Part shown: positions 1 to 28,380 of the stretch, piece by piece | How positions within the stretch are numbered: position 1 is the first letter of the stretch | Layout: each line of letters starts with the position of its first letter | NCBI RefSeq assembly: GCF_000336385.2 | Contig: NZ_HG424542.1 | Location: forward strand, 1-44,133 | From: Lysobacter antibioticus HS124 | Lineage (GTDB): Bacteria > Pseudomonadota > Gammaproteobacteria > Xanthomonadales > Xanthomonadaceae | DNA: 44,133 nt | Direction: 5' to 3' | Notes under the pieces: model-generated | Told to the model about the DNA's origin: nothing | Seen by the model: only the letters and a program-made list of their open reading frames with translations | Databases searched by the model: none | Translations under genes and position numbers: made by a program

Positions 1-43
1 CCGCTTCGATGCCGGTCGATACCATGCAAGGGAGTAATCCGAC

Positions 44-493
44 GTGACCATGCCGTCCGATCCGATCAAGCCGCGGCCGTTCCAGCTCGACGACCAGCAG
101 TGGCGAATCGTGGCTTCGTATCTTCCGCGTCAATACCAGGCGCGGATCCTCAACAACACCGGCGACTACCGCGCCTTCATCGAGGCGGTGTTGTGGGTGG
201 TGCACAACAACGCTCCCTGGACCAGCATTCCGGGCGGGTTCGGTTCCTGGCGGGCGGTTTACGTACGCTTCCTGCGCTGGGTCAAGGACGAGCACTGGAT
301 CGCGGTGGAGCGCGCCCTGGGGCTGGACAGCCCGCTCGCGCGCGGGTTGCGCGAGCGCGTGGAGCGCTATCGGGCCAACAATCTCTGGCGGCGCAGGCGC
401 GGACGCGTGGCGTCCCATGAGCGCGAGCCGGGCGACGCCGGCGAGCTGGATGTCGAGATCGCCAAGCGCTGGGGCCTGCTGTCGACGGGCTGA
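44..493 (+). CDS. IS5-type transposase N-terminal domain protein (DUF4096-like), short
   Basis: This 149-residue protein carries a DUF4096/InsA-like segment at about residues 10-85. It has the order typical of IS5-family OrfA proteins: an early W in a QQW motif, LP, a YRAFIEAVLWV helix, an APW turn, then FGSW and RFLRW. IS5 transposases continue into a DDE catalytic domain. Here the reading frame ends in an unrelated charged tail instead, and I found no DDE domain downstream and no terminal inverted repeats. The GTG start has an AAGGGAG ribosome site nine bases upstream; an in-frame ATG lies at 50. A strong terminator at 600-638 closes the unit. It is either a remnant of an insertion sequence or a domesticated DNA-binding protein; an intact transposase is unlikely. 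Confidence 0.7.
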   Translation: MTMPSDPIKPRPFQLDDQQWRIVASYLPRQYQARILNNTGDYRAFIEAVLWVVHNNAPWTSIPGGFGSWRAVYVRFLRWVKDEHWIAVERALGLDSPLARGLRERVERYRANNLWRRRRGRVASHEREPGDAGELDVEIAKRWGLLSTG

Positions 494-14682: not shown

Positions 14683-15690
14683 ATGAACGACCAGCAGATC
14701 CCCGCCGTTGCGGTGTACGGCGCCGGTGGACACACCGGCAAGTTCGTCGTCGCCGAGCTGCGCCGGCGCGCTATTCCCGTGGTGGCGGTGGGCCGGGACG
14801 CCTCTCGCCTGCCCGCCGGCGTGCCCGGCCGCGAGGCCGCGATCGACGATCCGGTGGCGCTGGATCGGGCTTTCGCCGGCTGCGCCGTGGTGGTCAATTG
14901 CGCCGGACCGTTCCTCGACACCGCCGCGCCGGTCGTGGAAGCGGCGGTGCGCGCCGGTTGCTCCTATCTCGACGTGACCGCCGAACAGGCCAGCGCCCAG
15001 GCGACCTTCCAGGCCTACGACGGCCCGGCGCGCGCGGCCGGCGTCGCGGTCATTCCCGCGGCGGGCTTCTACGGCGGACTCGCCGACTTGCTCGCCAGCG
15101 CCCTGGCCGGTGCCGAGCCGGTCGAGCGCATCACCACCGCGGTCGCGTTGGATCGTTGGTGGCCGACCGAAGGAACCCGCCGCACCGGCGAGCGCAACCG
15201 CGTGCCGCGCGTGGTGGTGGAAGACGGTCGGCTGGTGCCGATGGGCTTGCCCGCGGCGAGCATCGACTGGCGTTTCGACGCGCCGCACGGCGCGCAGACC
15301 GTGGTCGAGATGCCGTTCAGCGAAATCGTCACCCTGTCGCGGCACCTGCGCGTCCGCAGCCTGCGCAGCTACCTGAGCGCGAGCGCGCTGGCGGACGTAC
15401 GCGACGCCGATACGCCCGCGCCGAGCGCGCGCGACGCGCTAGGGCGCTCCGCGCAACGCTTCGCGATGGAAGTGGTCGTCGCCGGGCCGGCTGGAACGCG
15501 CCGCGCCGTCGCCCGCGGGCAGGACATTTACGCGGTATCGGCGCCCTTGATCGCAGAAGCCGTCGTCCGTTTGCTCGATCCTGCTTACCCGCGCTCCGGC
15601 GCGCTCGCGCTGGGCGAAGCGTTCGACGCTCGCGACTTTCTGCGCGCCCTGACGCCCACTCATCTCGCGACGGCATTCGACCCGGTCTGA
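14683..15690 (+). CDS. Saccharopine dehydrogenase-like NAD(P)-binding oxidoreductase
   Basis: The 335-residue protein opens with a Rossmann fold: a beta strand and G13-A-G-G-H-T-G19, the N-terminal signature of Sacchrp_dh_NADP proteins. VAVGRDASRLPAG follows, then VVNCAGPF and CSYLDVTAEQ, which are usual for this family. The C-terminal half is a mixed alpha/beta domain. Proteins of this type act on various substrates, and the real one cannot be read here. ATG 14683 is preceded by GGGAGGG. The gene starts the unit controlled by the two operators and is followed 43 bases later by the PEP-mutase-like gene. Confidence 0.8.
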   Translation: MNDQQIPAVAVYGAGGHTGKFVVAELRRRAIPVVAVGRDASRLPAGVPGREAAIDDPVALDRAFAGCAVVVNCAGPFLDTAAPVVEAAVRAGCSYLDVTAEQASAQATFQAYDGPARAAGVAVIPAAGFYGGLADLLASALAGAEPVERITTAVALDRWWPTEGTRRTGERNRVPRVVVEDGRLVPMGLPAASIDWRFDAPHGAQTVVEMPFSEIVTLSRHLRVRSLRSYLSASALADVRDADTPAPSARDALGRSAQRFAMEVVVAGPAGTRRAVARGQDIYAVSAPLIAEAVVRLLDPAYPRSGALALGEAFDARDFLRALTPTHLATAFDPV

Positions 15691-15733
15691 TCCGACGCGC
15701 TTCCGTTCGTCCTACTCCAAAGGAACCCCGCTC

Positions 15734-16501
15734 ATGCAACGCAATGAACTCGCTCAACGCTTGGCCGCTCTCCACGTCAAGGGCGACCCCCTGCGGCTCT
15801 ACAACGCCTGGGACGCCGGCAGCGCCAAGGCGATTGCCGGCGCCGGCGCGCCGGTGGTCGCGACCAGCAGCTGGGCGGTCGCCGCCGCGCAGGGCTACGA
15901 AGACGGCGAAGCGATTCCGCTGTCGCTGGTCGAACACATCGTCGGCCGCATCGCCGCCGCGGTCGACGTACCGGTGACCGTGGACTTCGAAGGCGGCTAT
16001 AGCGACGACCCCGCGACCGCCGCGGCGAACGTCGCGCGCCTGCTGGATGCCGGCGTGGTCGGGATCAACTTCGAGGACCGCATCGTTGCCGGCCACGGTC
16101 TGCACGCGATCCAGGCGCAGGCCGAACGCATTGCGGCGATTCGCGGCGTGGCCCGCGCGCGCGGCGTCGACTTGTTCATCAACGCGCGCACCGATCTGTT
16201 CTTCGATCCGGATCTGGCGCCGATGGACGGGCTGGAGGAGGCGCGGGAGCGGGCCAAGGCGTATGCCGCCGCGGGCGCTTCGGGATTGTTCGTGCCCGGG
16301 CTGGTCGATGCCCGCGCGATCGCGGCCTTGTGCGAAACGGTCGAACTGCCGGTCAACGTCATGGTCGGCCCGGGCCTGCCGGAACTGCCGGCCCTGGCCC
16401 GGGCCGGCGTGGCCCGGGTGAGCTACGGCCCCGGCCCGTACCTGGCCGCGATGGAAGGCGTGCGCGCCGCCGCGCAGGCTGCGTCCGCGCCGAGCGCATG
16501 A
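15734..16501 (+). CDS. Isocitrate lyase/phosphoenolpyruvate mutase superfamily enzyme
   Basis: This 255-residue protein has the ICL/PEPM plan. LYNAWDAGSAKAI at about residues 21-33 is followed by VVATSSWAVAAAQGY, D84-F-E-G-G-Y with the metal-site acidic pair, GVVGINFEDR, INARTDLFF and a final SYGPGPYLAAM. The lyase-specific KKCGH cysteine loop of isocitrate lyase is absent. It is therefore more like the small family members that cleave or rearrange C-C or C-P bonds of oxo-acids. It follows the TetR-controlled dehydrogenase-like gene by 43 bases (ribosome site AAAGGAA), which suggests a two-step catabolic or detoxification unit. Confidence 0.85.
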   Translation: MQRNELAQRLAALHVKGDPLRLYNAWDAGSAKAIAGAGAPVVATSSWAVAAAQGYEDGEAIPLSLVEHIVGRIAAAVDVPVTVDFEGGYSDDPATAAANVARLLDAGVVGINFEDRIVAGHGLHAIQAQAERIAAIRGVARARGVDLFINARTDLFFDPDLAPMDGLEEARERAKAYAAAGASGLFVPGLVDARAIAALCETVELPVNVMVGPGLPELPALARAGVARVSYGPGPYLAAMEGVRAAAQAASAPSA

Positions 16502-16504
16502 ACG

Positions 16505-16538
16505 CCGGCGCCGGGCGCGATGTCGCGCCCGGCGCCGG
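16505..16538. terminator. Bidirectional 16-bp hairpin between convergent genes
   Basis: CCGGCGCCGGGCGCGA pairs perfectly with TCGCGCCCGGCGCCGG around a two-base gap, which gives one of the longest perfect stems in the window. It sits between the stops at 16501 and 16546 and can serve both strands. A T-rich tail is missing on both sides. Confidence 0.6.
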
Positions 16539-16545
16539 TGGTTCG

Positions 16546-16809
16546 TTACATCTCCACGATCGGCCCGTTCGGGTCCGGCGGCGGCGGGCAGCCGCGCTCG
16601 GGCGTGCAGACGCCGATCAGGCGCCAGGCGCCCGCGCGGCATTGGTAGAACGAGCCCGGATCGTAGGGATGATCGTAGGCGACCTGAAACAGATGCCCTT
16701 CGGTCGCCGCGGTGCAGGCGTAAGTCGGTTCCGCGGCGGCCGGCGCGGCCGAACCGAGGGCCGCGGCGAAAACGGCGAGCGCGGCGGCTTTTGCAATCCA
16801 TCCCTTCAT
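16546..16809 (-). CDS. Small secreted protein, unknown function
   Basis: The 87-residue product has a clear signal peptide (basic MKGWIAK, then AAALAVFAAALG, cleavage likely after AAPAAA). The mature part of about 60 residues carries four cysteines and aromatic residues (YACTAATEGH, FYQCRAGAWRLIGVCTPERGC), suggesting two disulfides in a small periplasmic or extracellular domain. ATG 16809 is favoured over an earlier in-frame start because GGAGGAAA stands just upstream. I do not recognise the family. Confidence 0.75.
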   Translation of the reverse strand: MKGWIAKAAALAVFAAALGSAAPAAAEPTYACTAATEGHLFQVAYDHPYDPGSFYQCRAGAWRLIGVCTPERGCPPPPDPNGPIVEM

Positions 16810-17071
16810 GCGGTTTCCTCCATTGAACGCCGCCGTGGTGGGTGTCCCGGCCAAACCGCGATCGCGCGCACGAACGGCGGCGCAACGCGACGCGTCTCCC
16901 GTTTTCCGGAAGCGGCGGCGGCCCCGGCGGCGGGAAAGCGCGACGCTAGCACATGATGCGTCGCATCATGGGACGAGCTCGGACCGGCGGCGCGTCGTCG
17001 TCGATCCGATGGAATTCGCGAGCCGGCGAGTGCGGCCGTCGCCGGTCCACGAGGCAGCAGGAGGAGGCGAC

Positions 17072-17485
17072 ATGCAGTTTCGAACCCGTCGGGCGATCCT
17101 GTTCGGCGATTGCGATCCGGGCGGCGTGGTCTATACGCCGCGCATCGCCCATTTCGTGGTGGAAGCGGGGCTGGCGTTCCTCTCGCACGCATTGGGCGCG
17201 CCGGCGGAACGCCGTTTGTTCTCGTTCGGCATCCTGCCGCCGGCGCGAGCGCTTTCGATCGAGTTCCTGCATCCGATGACCTGGGATGAGGCGATCGATA
17301 TCGACGTGACGGTGGAGCGGGTGGGCGAGCATTCCTTCACCCTGGCGATCGCGGCCGTCAACGCCGAAGGCCGGACCACCTTCCGCGGCACGATCACCCA
17401 GGTCGCGATATCGCCGCAGACCCGGCGACCGGTGCCGCTGCCGGACGAACTGCGAGCGGCGCTGGAGCGCGTGCGAATCGGCTGA
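17072..17485 (+). CDS. Hotdog-fold acyl-CoA thioesterase (4HBT-like)
   Basis: The 137-residue size and the N-terminal FGDCDPGGVVYTPR match 4-hydroxybenzoyl-CoA-thioesterase-type hotdog enzymes. In that family the aspartate in F-x-D-x-D-x-x-G-x-V-Y is catalytic. A later FLHPMTWDEAIDIDVTVERV strand and SFTLAIAAVN complete the fold. ATG 17072 follows GAGGAGG. The acyl-CoA substrate is not deducible; no pathway gene is adjacent. Confidence 0.8.
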   Translation: MQFRTRRAILFGDCDPGGVVYTPRIAHFVVEAGLAFLSHALGAPAERRLFSFGILPPARALSIEFLHPMTWDEAIDIDVTVERVGEHSFTLAIAAVNAEGRTTFRGTITQVAISPQTRRPVPLPDELRAALERVRIG

Positions 17486-17698
17486 GCCGGCGCATCGCGG
17501 CTCAGCCGCGCTTCGAATGGCATCGCAACCGTTCGCCGTAATCGCGGGCGAACCATCCACCCGATCACACTTCGATCCGATCCGCCGCCGGCGCGGCATA
17601 AAACAGCCGAGAACCGTCAACCGGACGCATGCCGGCGCGTTGGCATCGGCGTCGCCCGCGCACCGTGCGCCGACGACTCAACCAGGAGTTCAACGACG

Positions 17699-18745
17699 AT
17701 GCTCGGAAAGGATGAAGCCATGCCTGCGGCGCGTTGCCGCCTGCGCATCGGCCTGCTGTGCGCCGCCGCGGCGCTGGTCTTGTTCGCTGCGCCCGCCGGC
17801 GCGTGCACGCCGACGCCGCTGCCGATGGGCGCACAGGGGCCGGACCTGTGCTACGCAGATCGAACCTGGTCGGAGCCGACCCTGGGCGGACGCGAGTTGC
17901 AGCAACAGTTCGACTTCTATCGGGCGCCGGCCACGACGCCGACCCCGCTGATCGTCTGGGCGCATCCGAACGGCATGAGCAAGGCCTTGCCGGCAAACTC
18001 GCCGATGCATCAGGCGCTGGTGGCCCCGGCGCTGCGGGCCGGATTCTCGTTCGCCTCGGTCGAATTCCGCCACCCGGTGACCAACGAGGCGCTGGCGAAC
18101 AGCGATGTCGACCCGCGCGTGCCGCACTACGACCTGGCCTACGCACTGCAATTCATCCGCGCCAACGCCGAGGCGCTGAACATCGACAAGCGCAACGTGT
18201 TCCTGGTCGGACAGTCGCGCGGCACCCTGGCGGTGTGGACGGCGCTGCAGGACGACTTGCGCGACCCGGACAGCACCGACCCGGTCGCGCGGCAGTCCAC
18301 CCGCGTCAACGCGGTCTATGCGGTGAACGCGCAGACGACCTACTCCGGCGCGGAGTTCGCCGAGCGCTTCATCGTGCCTGCCGACCGGGCGAAATTCGTG
18401 GCCGCGTTCAACCGCCAGCATCCCAAGCACGCCCAGTTCGGCAGCGCCATCGCCAGCGTCAGCGCCGGCCAGAAACCGGACCCGCCGCTGCGGTTGATCT
18501 ACGACAGTCCCGAGGTCGGGCGGCTGCTGACCCTGGAGCAGATCAGCCAGCGCGACCCGATCCACTATCCGGACTTCGGGCCGGCGCTGTGCACGACCTA
18601 CGCACAGGCATTCGGCAATAGCGCGCGCTGCACCTACGATGCCGATTCGCGCTACCAGGGCGATCCGGGCGCCGCATTCGCCGGCTATGTCGATTTCTTC
18701 AAGAGGCATCTGCGCCCGTCCGCTTCCGGCGGCGAGCGTCCCTGA
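17699..18745 (+). CDS. Secreted alpha/beta hydrolase
   Basis: This 348-residue protein has a signal peptide (IGLLCAAAALVLFAAPAGA) and an alpha/beta-hydrolase body. WAHPNG near residue 85 is the likely oxyanion-hole strand. VFLVGQSRGTLAV gives the nucleophile elbow with Ser173. The acid and histidine are expected in the C-terminal third, where several aspartates and HYPDFG occur. Candidate substrates are esters or peptides, and specificity is unknown. ATG 17699 follows AGGAG at ten bases. It converges on the acyltransferase gene ending at 18790, across a strong hairpin. Confidence 0.75.
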   Translation: MLGKDEAMPAARCRLRIGLLCAAAALVLFAAPAGACTPTPLPMGAQGPDLCYADRTWSEPTLGGRELQQQFDFYRAPATTPTPLIVWAHPNGMSKALPANSPMHQALVAPALRAGFSFASVEFRHPVTNEALANSDVDPRVPHYDLAYALQFIRANAEALNIDKRNVFLVGQSRGTLAVWTALQDDLRDPDSTDPVARQSTRVNAVYAVNAQTTYSGAEFAERFIVPADRAKFVAAFNRQHPKHAQFGSAIASVSAGQKPDPPLRLIYDSPEVGRLLTLEQISQRDPIHYPDFGPALCTTYAQAFGNSARCTYDADSRYQGDPGAAFAGYVDFFKRHLRPSASGGERP

Positions 18746-18789: not shown

Positions 18790-20085
18790 TCAGGCGACTT
18801 CGGCATCCAGCGTGGTCGCGGCCGGCAGGACCGCATCGGTCCGGCTGAGGCAGGCCGCGAGTTCGGCCATGAACGCCACGCGCAAGGCGTCGGCTTCGGC
18901 GCGGCTCAGGCATTGGTCGTCGCCGGTGTAGATGAAGTTCAGTTCGTCGTTCAAGGTGTAAGCGATCACCCCGAGCACACGGCTGGCGAAGGAATGCACG
19001 TAGATCCGCAGCCGGCGCACGCGCAGCGGCGAATCGGCCTGCAGCAACCGGATGTTGCCGAGATTGGAGAAGGAGAACAGGTTCCAGTTGCGGTTGCGGC
19101 TGATCGCATCGCCGAGGCGGACCAGGGAGCGGATCTTGGCCGCCGAGGGCGGGCGGATCATCTCGCAGAACTGATACTTGCCCGGGATGTCGTCGATGCC
19201 CTGAGCGACCTGGGCCAGGATGGTCCGGTTGAGTTCGCGCGCGGCGGTCCAGAAATCCGGAGCGACGCTCTGCCGCGCCGGCACTTTGAAGCTGCCGCCG
19301 CCGAAAAACAGCATGTCGCTCTTGAGCATGGACAGGCGTTCGCGGCGGGCGTCGATCGGGCTTTCGATCCAGTCCGGCATCTTGCGCTGCAAGGTGGCCT
19401 GCTGGGCCTGGCTCAGCGCCAGCAACAGCGCGGTGTGCAGCGACACGCTTTCGGCCTTGCAGCGCTGGCGCAGTCCCTCGGTGAACTCCGTGCCGAGACT
19501 CCAATGGATGTGGATCTCGTGCTTGTCCACCGGACGCCGCGTCGGCGGAAGCAGGGCGAACACGGCATTGACCAGCCAGGCGGCGGCACGGCGCTTCCAG
19601 CGCTTGCCGTCGTCGAAGTCGCCGATCACGTCGGCCGGAGCGATGGCCTGGTAAGGCACCAGCGCCTGCTCGGAATGCAGGCCGTCGAGCAACTCGCGCA
19701 CGATGGTCAGCTGGCTCATGCCGTCGCAGATGCGGTGGGTCGCTGCGACCAGCAGTTCGTGCTCCTCGTCCGAGCGCAGCCAGGTCAGGCGCAGCTGCGG
19801 CAGGTCGTGGACGAAGGGCGTGTAGGCCTCGTGCCGCCACTCGCGGGCCAGGGTGTCGTGGTCGGCGCCTTCGACGATGCGGATCGGCACCGGCGGCGCG
19901 CAGTCCATCTCGTACAGCAGTTCGCCGGCTTGCTCGCGGATCAGCATGCGCAGCGCCGGGTGCTTGCCCTGGACGCGATCGAGCGCGGCGCGCAATCGCG
20001 GCTCGTCCAACTCGCCGGCCAGGCTGAGCGCGAACACGACGTTGCCGTCGATCATGCGTTCGATCGTGGACATCTTGCGCTTCAT
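18790..20085 (-). CDS. Condensation-domain/acetyltransferase-like protein A (last gene of glycolipid-type operon)
   Basis: This 431-residue protein resembles standalone condensation-type acyltransferases (PapA, wax-synthase and alcohol acetyltransferase relatives). ALDRVQGKHPALRMLI lies near residues 35-50. H117-R-I-C-D121-G is the HHxxxDG active site with Thr in place of the first His and the catalytic second His kept. A late FSFSNLGNIRLL strand corresponds to the family's DFG-like latch region. MKRKM at 20085 is preceded by GAGGACGACG. It lies 35 bases after the GT2 gene and is probably cotranscribed. The expected role is transfer of an acyl chain to a sugar or lipid made by the neighbouring transferases. 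Confidence 0.75.
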   Translation of the reverse strand: MKRKMSTIERMIDGNVVFALSLAGELDEPRLRAALDRVQGKHPALRMLIREQAGELLYEMDCAPPVPIRIVEGADHDTLAREWRHEAYTPFVHDLPQLRLTWLRSDEEHELLVAATHRICDGMSQLTIVRELLDGLHSEQALVPYQAIAPADVIGDFDDGKRWKRRAAAWLVNAVFALLPPTRRPVDKHEIHIHWSLGTEFTEGLRQRCKAESVSLHTALLLALSQAQQATLQRKMPDWIESPIDARRERLSMLKSDMLFFGGGSFKVPARQSVAPDFWTAARELNRTILAQVAQGIDDIPGKYQFCEMIRPPSAAKIRSLVRLGDAISRNRNWNLFSFSNLGNIRLLQADSPLRVRRLRIYVHSFASRVLGVIAYTLNDELNFIYTGDDQCLSRAEADALRVAFMAELAACLSRTDAVLPAATTLDAEVA

Positions 20086-20120
20086 CGTCGTCCTCGCGGG
20101 TGGAACTGCGATCCGGCGGC

Positions 20121-21128
20121 TCAGCGCCGGGTGCAATAGGCGTGGATGCGCGGGTGACGGCTTTCGAACGTGCCCAGGCGTCCCAACAGGCCGTCGACAT
20201 AGCCGCACCAGATCGCCGCGACCTTGGCCAGCTTTCGCGGCTCGAACAGCAGCACGCAGACCGATTGGTGCACGGCCAACAAACCCGGCAGCCAATGCAG
20301 CGCCCACTTGCGCCGGTACAGGCCCAGCGCATGCACCGCGTTGCGGGCGCCGTAGTAGCGGCGCCAGGCGACGTGATGGGTGGTGAACATCTTGCCGTGA
20401 CGCTTGATCGCGCCGGTGGTCTGGCGCATGGTCACGCCGGCGTTCATGTACACGGGAATGCCATGGTCGGACGCGCGCAGGCCGTACTCGATATCGATGT
20501 ACTCGATGAAGTAGTCTTCGCGGAACGCGCCCAGCCGGCGGAAAGTCTCGGCCGAGAACGCCGAGCCGGACGAGATCACGAACAGCGACGGAAACAGGCC
20601 GCGTGGCTCGTCGTCGATGCGCCGCGGCTTGGGGAATCGCCGGCCCGGCGGGATCGAGGGCATGCACTTGCCGAGGTTGATTTCGTAGATCTTCGGCCCG
20701 ACCAGGAAGGTGGGGCTGCCGGTCTCGGCGCAGGCGCGCAGCATGTCGGCGAAAAACCCGTCGGCGATGTCCGAGTCCTGGTCGAGCAGGAACACGATCT
20801 CGCAGCCTCGCGCCAGCAGCGCTTCGGTGCCGCGATTGTAGGCGCCGGCCAGGCCGCCGCGGTTGTGGTTGGCGATCACCGTGGTGCCGCCGCGCTGCAG
20901 CGCCTCGTGCAGTTGCGGGTCGATCTGCGGAGAATTGTCCACCGCGACCACATGCCGGCATTGCGCCCGCGCCTTGTCGAGGTTGTGCAGGAATTCGGCG
21001 GTGGGCTGGTAGAGCACGAAGATCAGGCCGAACGCGACGGCTTCGTCGGCGCCCTCGTCCGGGATCGGGGAGGGGGTCTGCGGCGCGGTGCGCGCAAGCG
21101 CCGCGGACTCGTGCTGGAGCTCGCTCAT
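20121..21128 (-). CDS. GT2 family glycosyltransferase (rhamnosyltransferase-like)
   Basis: The 335-residue protein has a GT-A fold: FGLIFVLYQPTAEFLHNL, VVAVDNSP, NHNRGGLAGAYNRGTEALL, and LLDQDSD as the metal-binding D-x-D near residue 120. FFIEYIDIEYGLR-type residues follow in the acceptor loop. This order is that of GT2 enzymes such as dTDP-rhamnosyl transferases of the RhlC/WbbL kind. The C-terminal part has hydrophobic helices that may bind the membrane. The ATG overlaps the TGA of the upstream condensation gene in ATGA, indicating translational coupling. Confidence 0.85.
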   Translation of the reverse strand: MSELQHESAALARTAPQTPSPIPDEGADEAVAFGLIFVLYQPTAEFLHNLDKARAQCRHVVAVDNSPQIDPQLHEALQRGGTTVIANHNRGGLAGAYNRGTEALLARGCEIVFLLDQDSDIADGFFADMLRACAETGSPTFLVGPKIYEINLGKCMPSIPPGRRFPKPRRIDDEPRGLFPSLFVISSGSAFSAETFRRLGAFREDYFIEYIDIEYGLRASDHGIPVYMNAGVTMRQTTGAIKRHGKMFTTHHVAWRRYYGARNAVHALGLYRRKWALHWLPGLLAVHQSVCVLLFEPRKLAKVAAIWCGYVDGLLGRLGTFESRHPRIHAYCTRR

Positions 21129-22462
21129 GATGGGCTGCCTTGCCGCGCCAGCATGCGCAGCCGTTGCAGAGTCAGGTCGCGGATGGCGTCGGCCTGGGCG
21201 CGGGGCAGCGACTGATCGTCCGACGTCAGGGCGAAATCGAGCGCTTCTTCGTCGCCGACGATAGTGACCAGGTTGGCCGGCGTCGGCGCGAGTGCGGCCG
21301 TAGGGCTGAGCACCGCCTTGAGCCGGAAATCGCCGTACTCGCGTGCCAGGTCGAGCTTGCCGAGGTAGGACAGGGTCACGCCGCGACCGCTGCGGCGCGA
21401 ACGCGAATAGGCGATCAGCCGGTCGAACAGCGGGTGCACCCGCTCCATGCCGAGCAGGTTCTCGTGCACCTGCGGGCCGAGCTCGCCGATCTTGGCGTCG
21501 ATGTCCTTGCGCATGCCGCGGGCCACGGTCCAGTACTCGCCTTCGTCGCCGCCGAAGCTCTTCACGATCGCCGGCGACAACTGAATGGTCGGCGCCATCG
21601 CGAACAGGGCGTCGGCGCCGAGCTTGGGCAGAAACCGGCGCACATCGACCGGCAGGGAGAATTGTTCGATCGCGCCTTTGCCGAGGGTGTCGCGGAAGCT
21701 CAGCATCAAGGCCAGGCCGACGATGTTGAACACCGTCACCCGCTCCTGCCGGCAGCGCTGCGCCAAGGCCCGGTAGTCGTCCGTCGGTAGCTGCCAGCGG
21801 AGGGTATAGACCGTGCCGTAGCCGACCGCGGGGCCGATCCGGCGCGTGCGCACCCACAGCTTGAACAAGGCGGTCTTCCAGCGCAGCCGCCGCCGGATCG
21901 CGCCGTCGCCGAGCACGGCTTCCGGCAGCAGCGCGTCGACCTCCGGCATGGCCTCGTGGCGGCCGATGTCGCGCTCCGGGTCGTCGCACAGCAGCAACAA
22001 TTCGCGCAACAGGGTCAGTACCGACACGCCGTCGCAGACGCAGTGGTGGCAGGTCAGCAACAGTTCGCTGAGTTCCGCGCCCCGCACCAGGGTGGCGCGG
22101 ATCAGCGGTTCGCACCCGGCATCGAACAATTGGCCGCGTTCGCGCTCGCTTTCGCGTTCCCAGCGCCGGTCGTCGTCGCGCTCGACGATACGCAGCGGGA
22201 TCGGCGGCGCCGGGTGCCGCTCTTCGAACCAGGGCCGCCCGTCGATCGCGACCACCACGCTGCGCAGCACCGGATGCTTTTGCTGGAGGCGGGCCAGGGC
22301 CTGGCGCAGGCGCGCTTCGGCGATCCTGCCTTCGATGCGCGCGGGGATCACGATGGCGACCGGCACCTGGCCGTCCAGGTACATGCCGCGTTCGAACAAA
22401 CTCAGCGGGCGCTTCAGGGTCGCGCCGAGGGCGGCAGTGGCCACGGCGACGACGCCGGTCAT
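21125..22462 (-). CDS. Condensation-domain/acetyltransferase-like protein B
   Basis: The 445-residue protein has a complete active-site motif H139-H140-C-V-C-D144-G145, as in condensation domains and Pap-type acyltransferases. RPLSLFERGMYLDG and RQALARLQQKHPVLRSV occur in the N-terminal half, and SLPVDVRRFLP plus a late TLSYLGKLDLAREYG in the C-terminal half. No carrier-protein or adenylation domain is attached, so it is a standalone acyltransferase. It overlaps the genes on both sides by four bases (ATGA at 22459-22462 and 21125-21128). Together with protein A it gives the operon two non-identical acyltransferases. Confidence 0.8.
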   Translation of the reverse strand: MTGVVAVATAALGATLKRPLSLFERGMYLDGQVPVAIVIPARIEGRIAEARLRQALARLQQKHPVLRSVVVAIDGRPWFEERHPAPPIPLRIVERDDDRRWERESERERGQLFDAGCEPLIRATLVRGAELSELLLTCHHCVCDGVSVLTLLRELLLLCDDPERDIGRHEAMPEVDALLPEAVLGDGAIRRRLRWKTALFKLWVRTRRIGPAVGYGTVYTLRWQLPTDDYRALAQRCRQERVTVFNIVGLALMLSFRDTLGKGAIEQFSLPVDVRRFLPKLGADALFAMAPTIQLSPAIVKSFGGDEGEYWTVARGMRKDIDAKIGELGPQVHENLLGMERVHPLFDRLIAYSRSRRSGRGVTLSYLGKLDLAREYGDFRLKAVLSPTAALAPTPANLVTIVGDEEALDFALTSDDQSLPRAQADAIRDLTLQRLRMLARQGSPS

Positions 22463-23784
22463 GCGCTCTGTCCCAGCCATTGCAGCGACGCGTTGCCGCG
22501 TTCCTCCGGCGCCTGCTCCAACAGGCCCCAGCCGCGCAGATGGCGGATCGCTTCGGCGACGCCGTCTTCGGCGCGGATGCGCCGGCCCAGGTCGGCGGCG
22601 GCCTGCTGCATCGACGGCGTGTGCGCCTGTTCCAACGCGTCGGCCAGCGCCTCGGCGCTGAGTTGAGTGCGGTCCAGCGCGGCGGGCCCGGCGCCGATGC
22701 GGTTGAGCGAGTGCGCCCAGAACGGCTGATCGCCGTAGAACGGCACGATGACGGACGGGATGCCGGCCCGCGCCGCCGCTGCGGCGGTGCCGGCGCCGCC
22801 GTGGTGGACGGCGGCCGACATCAAGGGGAACAGGCGGTCGTGCGGGGCCTGGCGTATGAAGAATATCTGCTCGTCCAGGGCGCCGTCGGGATGGTCCAGT
22901 CCGCCCCAGCCGGTCGCCAGCAGCGCGCGCCGTCCGCTCTTGCGCACGGCCTCGATCACGGTCGCGGTGAATCCGGTCGCGTCGCTGGAGACCATGCTGC
23001 CGAAGCCGATGTAGACCGGTTTCGGGCCGGCAGCGAGGAACGCGCGCAAGGCATCGGAAGGCTGCCATTGGGCCTCGTCGAGGAACCAGTAGCCGGCGAT
23101 CTGGACGTTCTGCGGCCAGTCGGCCGGCCGCGGCACCACATGGCGACTGAAGCCGTACACGACGCGGGTGCCGGCGTTCTTGTAGTAGGGCCCGTACCAG
23201 GGATACTTCTTCAGCCCGAGTTGCGGCCGCACGATATCGTTGAGGGCCGGCTTCATCACGTGCCAGACCAGGTGGCGCAGCACGTGGTAACTGGCGACGT
23301 TGAGCAGCGGCGGCAGATTCCGCTTCTTGCCGGCCAGCACCACCGGCGGCATCAGCCGCGATGGCGTCAGTGGTTGCAGTTGCGCCGCGACGAATGGAAT
23401 CCCGTGAGCCTCGGCCAGCGACTTGGCCAGCAGCGTGCTGTTGCCGACGCCCATCAGCAGGCCGGCGCCTTCGATGGCGGCCCGCCCTTCGGCGACCCAG
23501 CTGCGCGCCCATTGCGCGTACTGGCGGCGGAACACGCGCGCCATCTCGCGCATGTTCAGGCCGCGGTCGGCGATGCTGCGGTCGGCGTGAAGCATGGCGT
23601 GGAAGTCGCTGGCCAGCGGGTAGTGCTCCAGGCCCGCGCCGCGTACCAGTTCGGAGAAGTGGCCGCTGGTGACGATGCGCACCGGATAGCCGGCGCTGCG
23701 CAGGCCCTGGCCCAATGCGACCAACGGACGGATGTCGCCTTGCGTCCCGATGGTGAAGATGGCGATCGGCGCCCGCGTGCTCAT
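22459..23784 (-). CDS. GT1 family glycosyltransferase (first gene of glycolipid-type operon)
   Basis: This 441-residue GT-B enzyme starts with IAIFTIGTQGDIRPLVALG, the signature of GT1/GT28-like transferases such as sterol glucosyltransferases and RhlB. The donor-binding half contains KPVYIGFGSMVS, LLATGWGG, FFIRQAPHDRLFPLMSAAV, H327-H-G-G-A-G-T and PFYGDQPFWA. It would transfer a sugar from a nucleotide donor to a lipid or hydroxyl acceptor. The canonical strand start supports ATG 23784. The ribosome site is weak (GAGG 14 bases upstream), and the promoter seems to lie some 300 bases further up. It opens the four-gene operon. Confidence 0.85.
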   Translation of the reverse strand: MSTRAPIAIFTIGTQGDIRPLVALGQGLRSAGYPVRIVTSGHFSELVRGAGLEHYPLASDFHAMLHADRSIADRGLNMREMARVFRRQYAQWARSWVAEGRAAIEGAGLLMGVGNSTLLAKSLAEAHGIPFVAAQLQPLTPSRLMPPVVLAGKKRNLPPLLNVASYHVLRHLVWHVMKPALNDIVRPQLGLKKYPWYGPYYKNAGTRVVYGFSRHVVPRPADWPQNVQIAGYWFLDEAQWQPSDALRAFLAAGPKPVYIGFGSMVSSDATGFTATVIEAVRKSGRRALLATGWGGLDHPDGALDEQIFFIRQAPHDRLFPLMSAAVHHGGAGTAAAAARAGIPSVIVPFYGDQPFWAHSLNRIGAGPAALDRTQLSAEALADALEQAHTPSMQQAAADLGRRIRAEDGVAEAIRHLRGWGLLEQAPEERGNASLQWLGQSA

Positions 23785-24240
23785 GGGTGAATCGCAGCCT
23801 CTTCTGGCGGTGGATGTCGCATGTCCGAGCGTCCCGCCGGCAGCGTGTCCCGCTGCGCCAGGCGCAACGGGCGTCGGCCCGCACTCGCTGCGGACCCGCG
23901 GCGGCGGCCGTTCGGCCAGCGTGGGTTTCGCTGCAACGGATCGACCGGGCGTCGGCTCCGCGCGCTTCGCGCACCGGGCGGTGCGCCTGGCGAATCGGGT
24001 GGGCATGACGACCGGTATGGATGGAATCTAATGCTGCGCCACGGAAGTTTTCCTTTGGCGGCATCACAGTTCGCCGCCAGCTTCCTGTCCCCGATCGCAC
24101 GCTGTGACCGCGTTATCCGTTTCGGAAAAATCCGGCAAAATGCCCGGATTCGAAGAAAATGCGCTGCTGCGCGATAGCGGAATTCGCCTGTTGCGGTTAG
24201 ACCGAATGCAATGACGGGCGGTGCGACGGGAGCGGAAGAG
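23785..24240. other. Divergent intergenic region (GT1 operon / cupin)
   Basis: About 455 bases without a gene. An AT-richer part at 24110-24190 holds an inverted repeat, ATCCGG-N8-CCGGAT (24130-24149). On the minus strand it also holds a weak promoter-like pair, TTGCCG (24133-24138) and GATAAC (24112-24117), 15 bases apart. If this drives the glycosyltransferase operon, its mRNA leader would be about 320 bases long. Confidence 0.35.
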
Positions 24241-24573
24241 ATGAAGATCGGGAACTTGTTCGACGGATCGCAAGCGCCCGCCGCGGGCGAGCGCTTCGAG
24301 CCTCTGCTCAGTCACCGCAATCTGGTGGTGGAGCGAATTCTCAGCTCGGCGGCGATCGAACCGGTGGAGTACGTGCAGCCCCAGGACGAATGGGTGGCGC
24401 TGCTGCAGGGCGAGGCGACGCTGGAGGTGGCCGGAGAATCCTTCGAGCTGCGGTCCGGCGATCACTTGTTCCTGCCCGCCGGGACGCCGCACATCGTACG
24501 GCGGGTCTCGCAGGGGGCGTTGTGGCTGGCGGTGCATCTGCATCCGTCGGCTGCTGACGCAGCGGCGGACTAG
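24241..24573 (+). CDS. Small single-domain cupin protein
   Basis: The 110-residue protein is a single cupin beta-barrel. The first motif is degenerate (EWVALLQGEATLEVAG), and the second is GDHLFLPAGTPH with a histidine in the usual place. DNL-like MKIGNLFD precedes the barrel. Such cupins often bind a metal or serve as small isomerase, lyase or sensor domains; no function can be fixed. ATG 24241 follows GGAGCGGAAGAG, better than the upstream in-frame ATG 24211. It is divergent from the glycosyltransferase operon, and its stop is four bases from that of the convergent gene at 24578. Confidence 0.75.
   Translation: MKIGNLFDGSQAPAAGERFEPLLSHRNLVVERILSSAAIEPVEYVQPQDEWVALLQGEATLEVAGESFELRSGDHLFLPAGTPHIVRRVSQGALWLAVHLHPSAADAAAD

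Positions 24574-26829: not shown

Positions 26830-28380
<1,551 letters not shown>

Follow-up and report, generated by a model that had tools for sequence, protein, structure and literature searches.

A four-gene glycosyltransferase and condensation-type operon of Lysobacter antibioticus that most likely decorates the product of a distant one-module nonribosomal peptide synthetase

In rhamnolipid biosynthesis a lipid core receives its first sugar from a family-1 glycosyltransferase and its second from a family-2 glycosyltransferase of the TIGR01556 type. SwrW, the serrawettin W1 (serratamolide) synthetase, is a nonribosomal peptide synthetase (NRPS) with a single module of condensation, adenylation, carrier and thioesterase domains (C-A-T-TE), and serrawettin W1 is symmetric, with two serines and two 3-hydroxydecanoates (PMC7767323). 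Pseudomonas putida has served as an expression host for swrW (PMC6053208). The mycobacterial glycopeptidolipids have an NRPS core that is N-acylated and further decorated; it is a tripeptide-amino alcohol, made with a polyketide synthase (PMC3537567). Here we compare with these systems an operon of Lysobacter antibioticus HS124, found in a stretch of 44,133 nucleotides (contig NZ_HG424542.1, our C103; below, the window) of a 5.14 Mb genome assembled in 183 contigs. The operon encodes a family-1 glycosyltransferase (GT1), a standalone condensation/PapA-type protein (C1), a family-2 glycosyltransferase (GT2) and a second condensation/PapA-type protein (C2). Most likely, it decorates in trans the lipoamino-acid product of an NRPS encoded elsewhere in the genome. 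The reading as a whole, a two-locus pathway leading to an acylated diglycosyl lipoamino acid, is given a probability of about 0.6.

The operon shares with RhlA-RhlB-RhlC the logic of two glycosyltransferases. It differs in its two extra condensation-type proteins, in its GT1, whose sequence is closer to those of sterol glucosyltransferase and GtfB, and in the core, which would be made by the NRPS in place of RhlA. No RhlA-type gene is present among the four operon proteins, none of which is an alpha/beta hydrolase; the search for it was confined to these four. The partner NRPS resembles SwrW in having one C-A-T-TE module, as read on a relative's locus (L038), and differs in being accompanied by a GT1 gene, SwrW being compared by its published description rather than by sequence. 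Also by description, the glycopeptidolipids are similar in their N-acylated, decorated NRPS core and dissimilar in the tripeptide-amino alcohol and the polyketide synthase. PapA5 and other mycobacterial Pap acyltransferases, and AzeD (8s6l), share the condensation fold with C2 at identities of 23% and 14%, the partners here being glycosyltransferases and an NRPS. The original prediction knew of no described pathway with exactly this gene set, and none was found among the literature matches listed, which are open-licence only and hence weak evidence of novelty. Judging by their titles, the papers on "haploside" include none on a product of bacteria. The products would apparently constitute a widespread, undescribed family of bacterial glycolipids.

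The partner was recognised by comparing 20 loci: the window, six named loci and 13 of 14 fetched stretches (L047, from the window's species, was left out). In ten of them a gene for a protein of 1329-1356 amino acids directly precedes GT1, giving the order NRPS-GT1-C1-GT2-C2; five of these loci are from the window's genus, one from Luteimonas and four from Dyella. In L038, Pfam finds Condensation, AMP-binding, PP-binding and Thioesterase domains, so that a single protein of about 1300 residues has the whole C-A-T-TE set, a feature of SwrW-type synthetases. The window's genome has its own copy, 57% identical over 1317 of 1334 residues, which is on contig C13 with no GT1 beside it. Typed by profile alignment and motifs, this copy covers positions 1-1339 of the family profile, and HHxxxDG, GGDSL and GxSxGG are conserved in it. 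With a C-A-T-TE-type NRPS in the same genome, an N-acyl amino acid is a likelier core than a polyketide. The original prediction had envisaged two sugars and two acyl groups on a lipid or polyketide core; the sugars and acyl groups stay most likely, and with an NRPS linked in relatives the core is rather an N-acyl amino acid. Its remark that adenylation and carrier domains are absent holds for the operon, domain scans of whose four proteins reported no adenylation, carrier, ketosynthase or thioesterase families, and fails for the genome.

Each of the 20 genomes examined from the window's genus contains one NRPS at E 1e-299 (one among up to 31 candidates scored per genome; the match in G005 is partial, model positions 1-838), one GT1 at E 1e-40, and C1 adjacent to GT2. 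Three layouts were observed. In layout A (five genomes) all five genes are together. In layout B (the window's genome, its conspecific and one sister species) the NRPS is alone and GT1-C1-GT2-C2 is elsewhere. In layout C (12 genomes) NRPS-GT1 is separated from C1-GT2, by at least 213 kb on one contig in seven genomes and by location on different contigs in five. The pathway is split over two loci in 15 of the 20 genomes. C2-like matches occur in at least eight of the 20, among the matches listed; the lack of C2 in layout C is based on a profile search for G003 and G010 and on the match listing for the other ten. GT1 is beside the NRPS in none of the three layout-B loci (two species), and the gap between the layout-B NRPS and the patatin gene that follows it yielded no better-than-chance match to a GT1 remnant. 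Action of the operon in trans with the distant NRPS is supported most strongly by the fact that, in the layout-B lineage, whose NRPS has no GT1 beside it, the operon GT1 is the only family member (at E 1e-40 in the window's genome) available for the task of GT1.

Some genes adjoin these loci. In seven layout-C loci (L040-L046) C1-GT2 follows MFS-type and N-acetylmuramoyl-amidase-type genes on the same strand (Pfam assignments from L044). Behind the NRPS of the window's genome there are a patatin-like phospholipase gene and a gene of the phosphoethanolamine-lipid A transferase family (L054:14684-15949 and 15957-17615). A patatin-like gene also adjoins the NRPS in the layout-B loci L081 and L082, and it follows GT1 in the layout-C loci L090 and L091 (two of 12 read). 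Two genes further upstream of the window genome's NRPS resemble a two-component pair; those in the equivalent position in L091 are such a pair by Pfam. About 13 kb before the one-module NRPS, contig C13 contains a second NRPS set (1112, 1111 and 1501 amino acids, then 447 amino acids; L055:5867-17071).

Across the order, 397 genomes were searched; 41 have the NRPS, and C2 was found in 13, all of them among the 41. C2 and the NRPS are 2.4-6.0 kb apart in 12 of the 13, the exception being the window's genome. GT1 directly follows the NRPS in all 17 loci read from the 28 genomes with the NRPS and without C2; this count was taken from tblastn, as the codon-score caller misread L085 and L093. Partial clusters include NRPS-GT1 by itself; NRPS-GT1 plus an acyltransferase of the PF01757 type (assigned by Pfam on L095), beside GT1 in L095, L096 and L098 and 2.5-4.6 kb away in L097 and L099; NRPS-GT1-penicillin amidase-GT2 (L083, L094); NRPS-GT1-GT2-C2 (L075, L076); and NRPS-GT1-amidase-C1-GT2-C2 (L074, L078). 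Since the added genes encode sugar, acyl or deacylation enzymes, they fit a lipoamino-acid glycolipid. In the wider phylum, with five candidates scored per genome, the GT2 profile at E 1e-70 matched two of 398 sampled genomes, the window's and G728. Tentatively, at somewhat less than even odds, the clusters make up a modular class whose glycolipids are NRPS-primed, "rhamnolipids without RhlA": an NRPS-GT1 core would produce a glycosyl lipoamino acid, and lineages would add GT2, C1, C2, the PF01757-type protein or a PvdQ-like N-acylase. If so, four or five tractable genes make a glycolipid family present in 20 of 20 genomes of the genus and, by its NRPS, in 41 of 397 of the order. A seemingly orphan operon would be explained by a partner on another contig, a pairing that cluster-finding by neighbourhood would miss, and the natural versions with or without GT2, C1, C2 or the acylase would allow direct tests of what each enzyme does.

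GT1 contains PF03033 and PF06722, and also PF00201, above the cut-offs. Its best PDB matches are sterol 3-beta-glucosyltransferase (178.6 bits) and GtfB (128.8 bits), the former (5xvm, residues 23-434) aligning with residues 8-415 and thus across the whole GT-B fold; the best match to a PDB chain called rhamnosyltransferase scores 28.9 bits. A function as sterol glucosyltransferase was not adopted, because GT1 is partnered by an NRPS gene in relatives; no search for sterol genes was made. GT2 has PF00535 above the cut-off and shares 38% identity with the GT2 encoded in a cluster from the same class (L073) read as RhlA/RhlB/MFS/RhlC-like, whose GT2 passes the TIGR01556 cut-off. That cluster (L073:8067-15279) also encodes an outer-membrane efflux protein, and another of its genes is phospholipid-methyltransferase-like. 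The similarity supports an RhlC-like assignment of GT2 from sequence. Of the proposed parallel to RhlB and RhlC, the second half is retained with the reservation on TIGR01556 given below, and the first is weakened by the best matches of GT1. RmlD (dTDP-rhamnose) is above the cut-off in the window's genome (G000:C28) and likewise in nine of 14 control genomes, and therefore is weak support.

The adenylation pocket of the window genome's NRPS reads D-I-F-Q-L-T-L-V-W. Luteimonas, Dyella and L074 have D-I-L-Q-L/M-G-L/F-V-W, and layout A has D-V-L-Q-L-A-L-V-Y (11 rows, of which L012 and L075 were incompletely read). These letters are nearest to glycine codes and differ from the serine code. In the PDB, the adenylation core is matched best by the second module of LgrA, a glycine module. 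The pocket is probably glycine-like, judging from these residues.

Given the observed operon and NRPS, the occurrence of one NRPS and one GT1 per genome and the linkage NRPS-GT1(-C1)-GT2-C2 in relatives, the following scheme may be proposed. The NRPS condensation domain would join a fatty acyl chain, probably 3-hydroxylated, to one amino acid loaded by the adenylation and carrier domains, and the thioesterase would release the N-acyl amino acid. GT1 would add a first hexose, which in the case of glycine would go on the hydroxyl of the acyl chain, and GT2 a second sugar, perhaps rhamnose. C1 and C2 would each O-acylate the glycan or the lipid. The resulting acylated diglycosyl lipoamino acid would probably be a surface-active or outer-envelope glycolipid.

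Several points weigh against this reading. All reactions, their substrates and sequence, and the purpose of the product are inferred by us. GT2 scores 152.4 bits with TIGR01556, under the cut-off of 200.55. About 208 kb separate the NRPS from the operon in the three-contig conspecific and about 133 kb in the sister species, and hence the two are not co-transcribed. The pocket letters are not uniform among the relatives and were matched to codes by hand. The order-wide searches scored four candidates per genome for C2 and two for the NRPS. The co-occurrence of C2 and NRPS (hypergeometric 2e-14) is overstated and no independent test, owing to the relatedness of the genomes and to physical linkage in most pairs. 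Finally, the chain closest in sequence to C1 and C2 among solved structures is 8s6l, "AzeD dehydratase of Pseudomonas aeruginosa" by its PDB entry title.

The last point leads to the first alternative, that C1, C2 or both perform other condensation-fold chemistry (dehydration, amide formation or carrier release), in which case the glycosylated lipoamino acid would bear no additional acyl groups in ester linkage. Both proteins have PF00668 above the cut-off. HHxxxDG is kept by C1 in 13 of 13 aligned rows and xHxxxDG by C2 in 10 of 10; the THRICDG of C2 retains the histidine of HxxxDG but not the first histidine of HHxxxDG. C2 has the PapA/C-domain fold in its predicted structure, so that fold and HxxxDG motif agree with condensation-fold (PapA/BAHD-like) acyltransferases. 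However, 8s6l is the closest solved chain to C2 by fold as well, and it shares xHxxxDG with C2. As its title names a dehydratase, we regard the alternative as unlikely but serious. The original prediction of Pap-like acyltransferases is thus borne out as to protein type, acyl transfer being inferred. Among 72,556 plasmid records C1 had a single match, on a Nostoc plasmid (28.8%).

A second alternative is a self-standing operon, unlinked to the NRPS, that modifies an existing lipid such as a hydroxy fatty acid, a hopanoid-like alcohol or a phospholipid. The operon is indeed alone in the window's genome, the PDB neighbours of GT1 are sterol glucosyltransferases, and C1-GT2 is apart from NRPS-GT1 in 12 of 20 genomes of the genus. 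On the other hand, the NRPS is within 6 kb of C2 in 12 of the 13 C2-containing genomes of the order, and the window's lineage, lacking a GT1 beside the NRPS, has only that of the operon. We consider this improbable. Thirdly, the N-acyl chain could be a temporary handle, removed after glycosylation as in PvdQ-type maturation. Penicillin-amidase (N-acyl hydrolase) genes do directly follow GT1 in L074, L078, L083 and L094, and two of them, when scanned, matched PvdQ far under the cut-off; however, such a gene is absent from the window's operon and from between GT1 and C1 in the ten NRPS-bearing clusters, which makes this explanation highly improbable for the operon.

Compared with the sister species, in which the genes are split in the same way, dN/dS is 0.15 for GT1, 0.25 for C1, 0.18 for GT2, 0.23 for C2 and 0.13 for the NRPS, and thus both loci are maintained by purifying selection (0.13-0.25). 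Although the operon is physically apart from the NRPS, a decaying relic severed from it is very hard to reconcile with intact frames and motifs and with dN/dS of 0.15-0.25 in all four genes. The genome search for the same gene order found it kept in the named Luteimonas and Dyella loci; this order, the dN/dS values and the conserved C1 and C2 motifs argue that the gene set is not due to chance.

The history of the genes was considered using quick trees. In the NRPS tree, for which no mixture model was used, the proteins of layouts A, B and C group in a single clade (support 98*). A single GT1 clade for the three layouts was rejected (p-AU 0.00026), whereas a single GT2 clade was not (p-AU 0.214), nor was a C1 clade of A and B (p-AU 0.302). 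Because the NRPS and GT1 trees disagree, the decoration genes and the NRPS do not have one simple shared history. The window genome's NRPS is 77% identical to the two layout-C NRPSs read; its GT1 is 53% identical to the layout-C GT1 and 68-70% identical to those of Luteimonas, L078 and L083. Displacement of a native GT1 by a foreign one, suggested by these identities, was not retained, as the GT1 tree joins the window and layout-C GT1 (support about 31). Faster evolution of GT1 is an equally good explanation, since the layout-C GT1 is on a very long branch with weak support.

The leftward operon was predicted correctly to the base, including both ATGA overlaps and the 35-base gap (Table 1). 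It is four genes long, as it is bounded by a divergent gene upstream and a convergent gene downstream. No sigma-70 consensus match was found in the upstream intergenic region, and the promoter and terminator scans gave nothing. The C1 query lacked its ATG in the domain scans and several similarity searches. Gene models beyond the window are from a simple codon-score caller, and their starts are approximate.

Table 1. Positions of the operon genes, the partner NRPS and related features (window coordinates unless a locus or contig is given)
Feature	Position	Strand	Remarks
GT1	22459-23784	-	441 aa; family-1 (GT-B fold) glycosyltransferase; first operon gene
C1	21125-22462	-	445 aa; standalone condensation/PapA-type; HHCVCDG motif
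GT2	20121-21128	-	335 aa; family-2 glycosyltransferase, rhamnosyltransferase (RhlC-like) kind
C2	18790-20085	-	431 aa; second standalone condensation/PapA-type; THRICDG
ATGA overlap, GT1 stop/C1 start	22459-22462	-	open reading frame reading
ATGA overlap, C1 stop/GT2 start	21125-21128	-	open reading frame reading
GT2-C2 gap	20086-20120		35 bases
Cupin gene	24211-24573	+	divergent, upstream of operon
Alpha/beta hydrolase (BD-FAE hydrolase) gene	17699-18745	+	convergent, downstream of operon
Intergenic region, operon to cupin gene	23785-24210	none	expected site of operon promoter
NRPS of the window's genome	G000:C13:60332-64330
Penicillin-amidase gene	L074:6596-8869		in NRPS-GT1 cluster
Penicillin-amidase gene	L078:13383-15656		in NRPS-GT1 cluster
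Penicillin-amidase gene	L083:13266-15533		in NRPS-GT1 cluster
Penicillin-amidase gene	L094:13716-15965		in NRPS-GT1 cluster

The hydrolase gene is the last of a convergent group (14683-18745, plus strand) that also contains saccharopine-dehydrogenase-like, PEP mutase-like and 4HBT thioesterase genes. A thermolysin-type M4 metalloprotease gene is located near the operon (26830-28380, plus strand) and likewise near that of the sister species (L034). At the contig end there is a piece of an IS4/5-type transposase (DUF4096; 38-493, plus strand).
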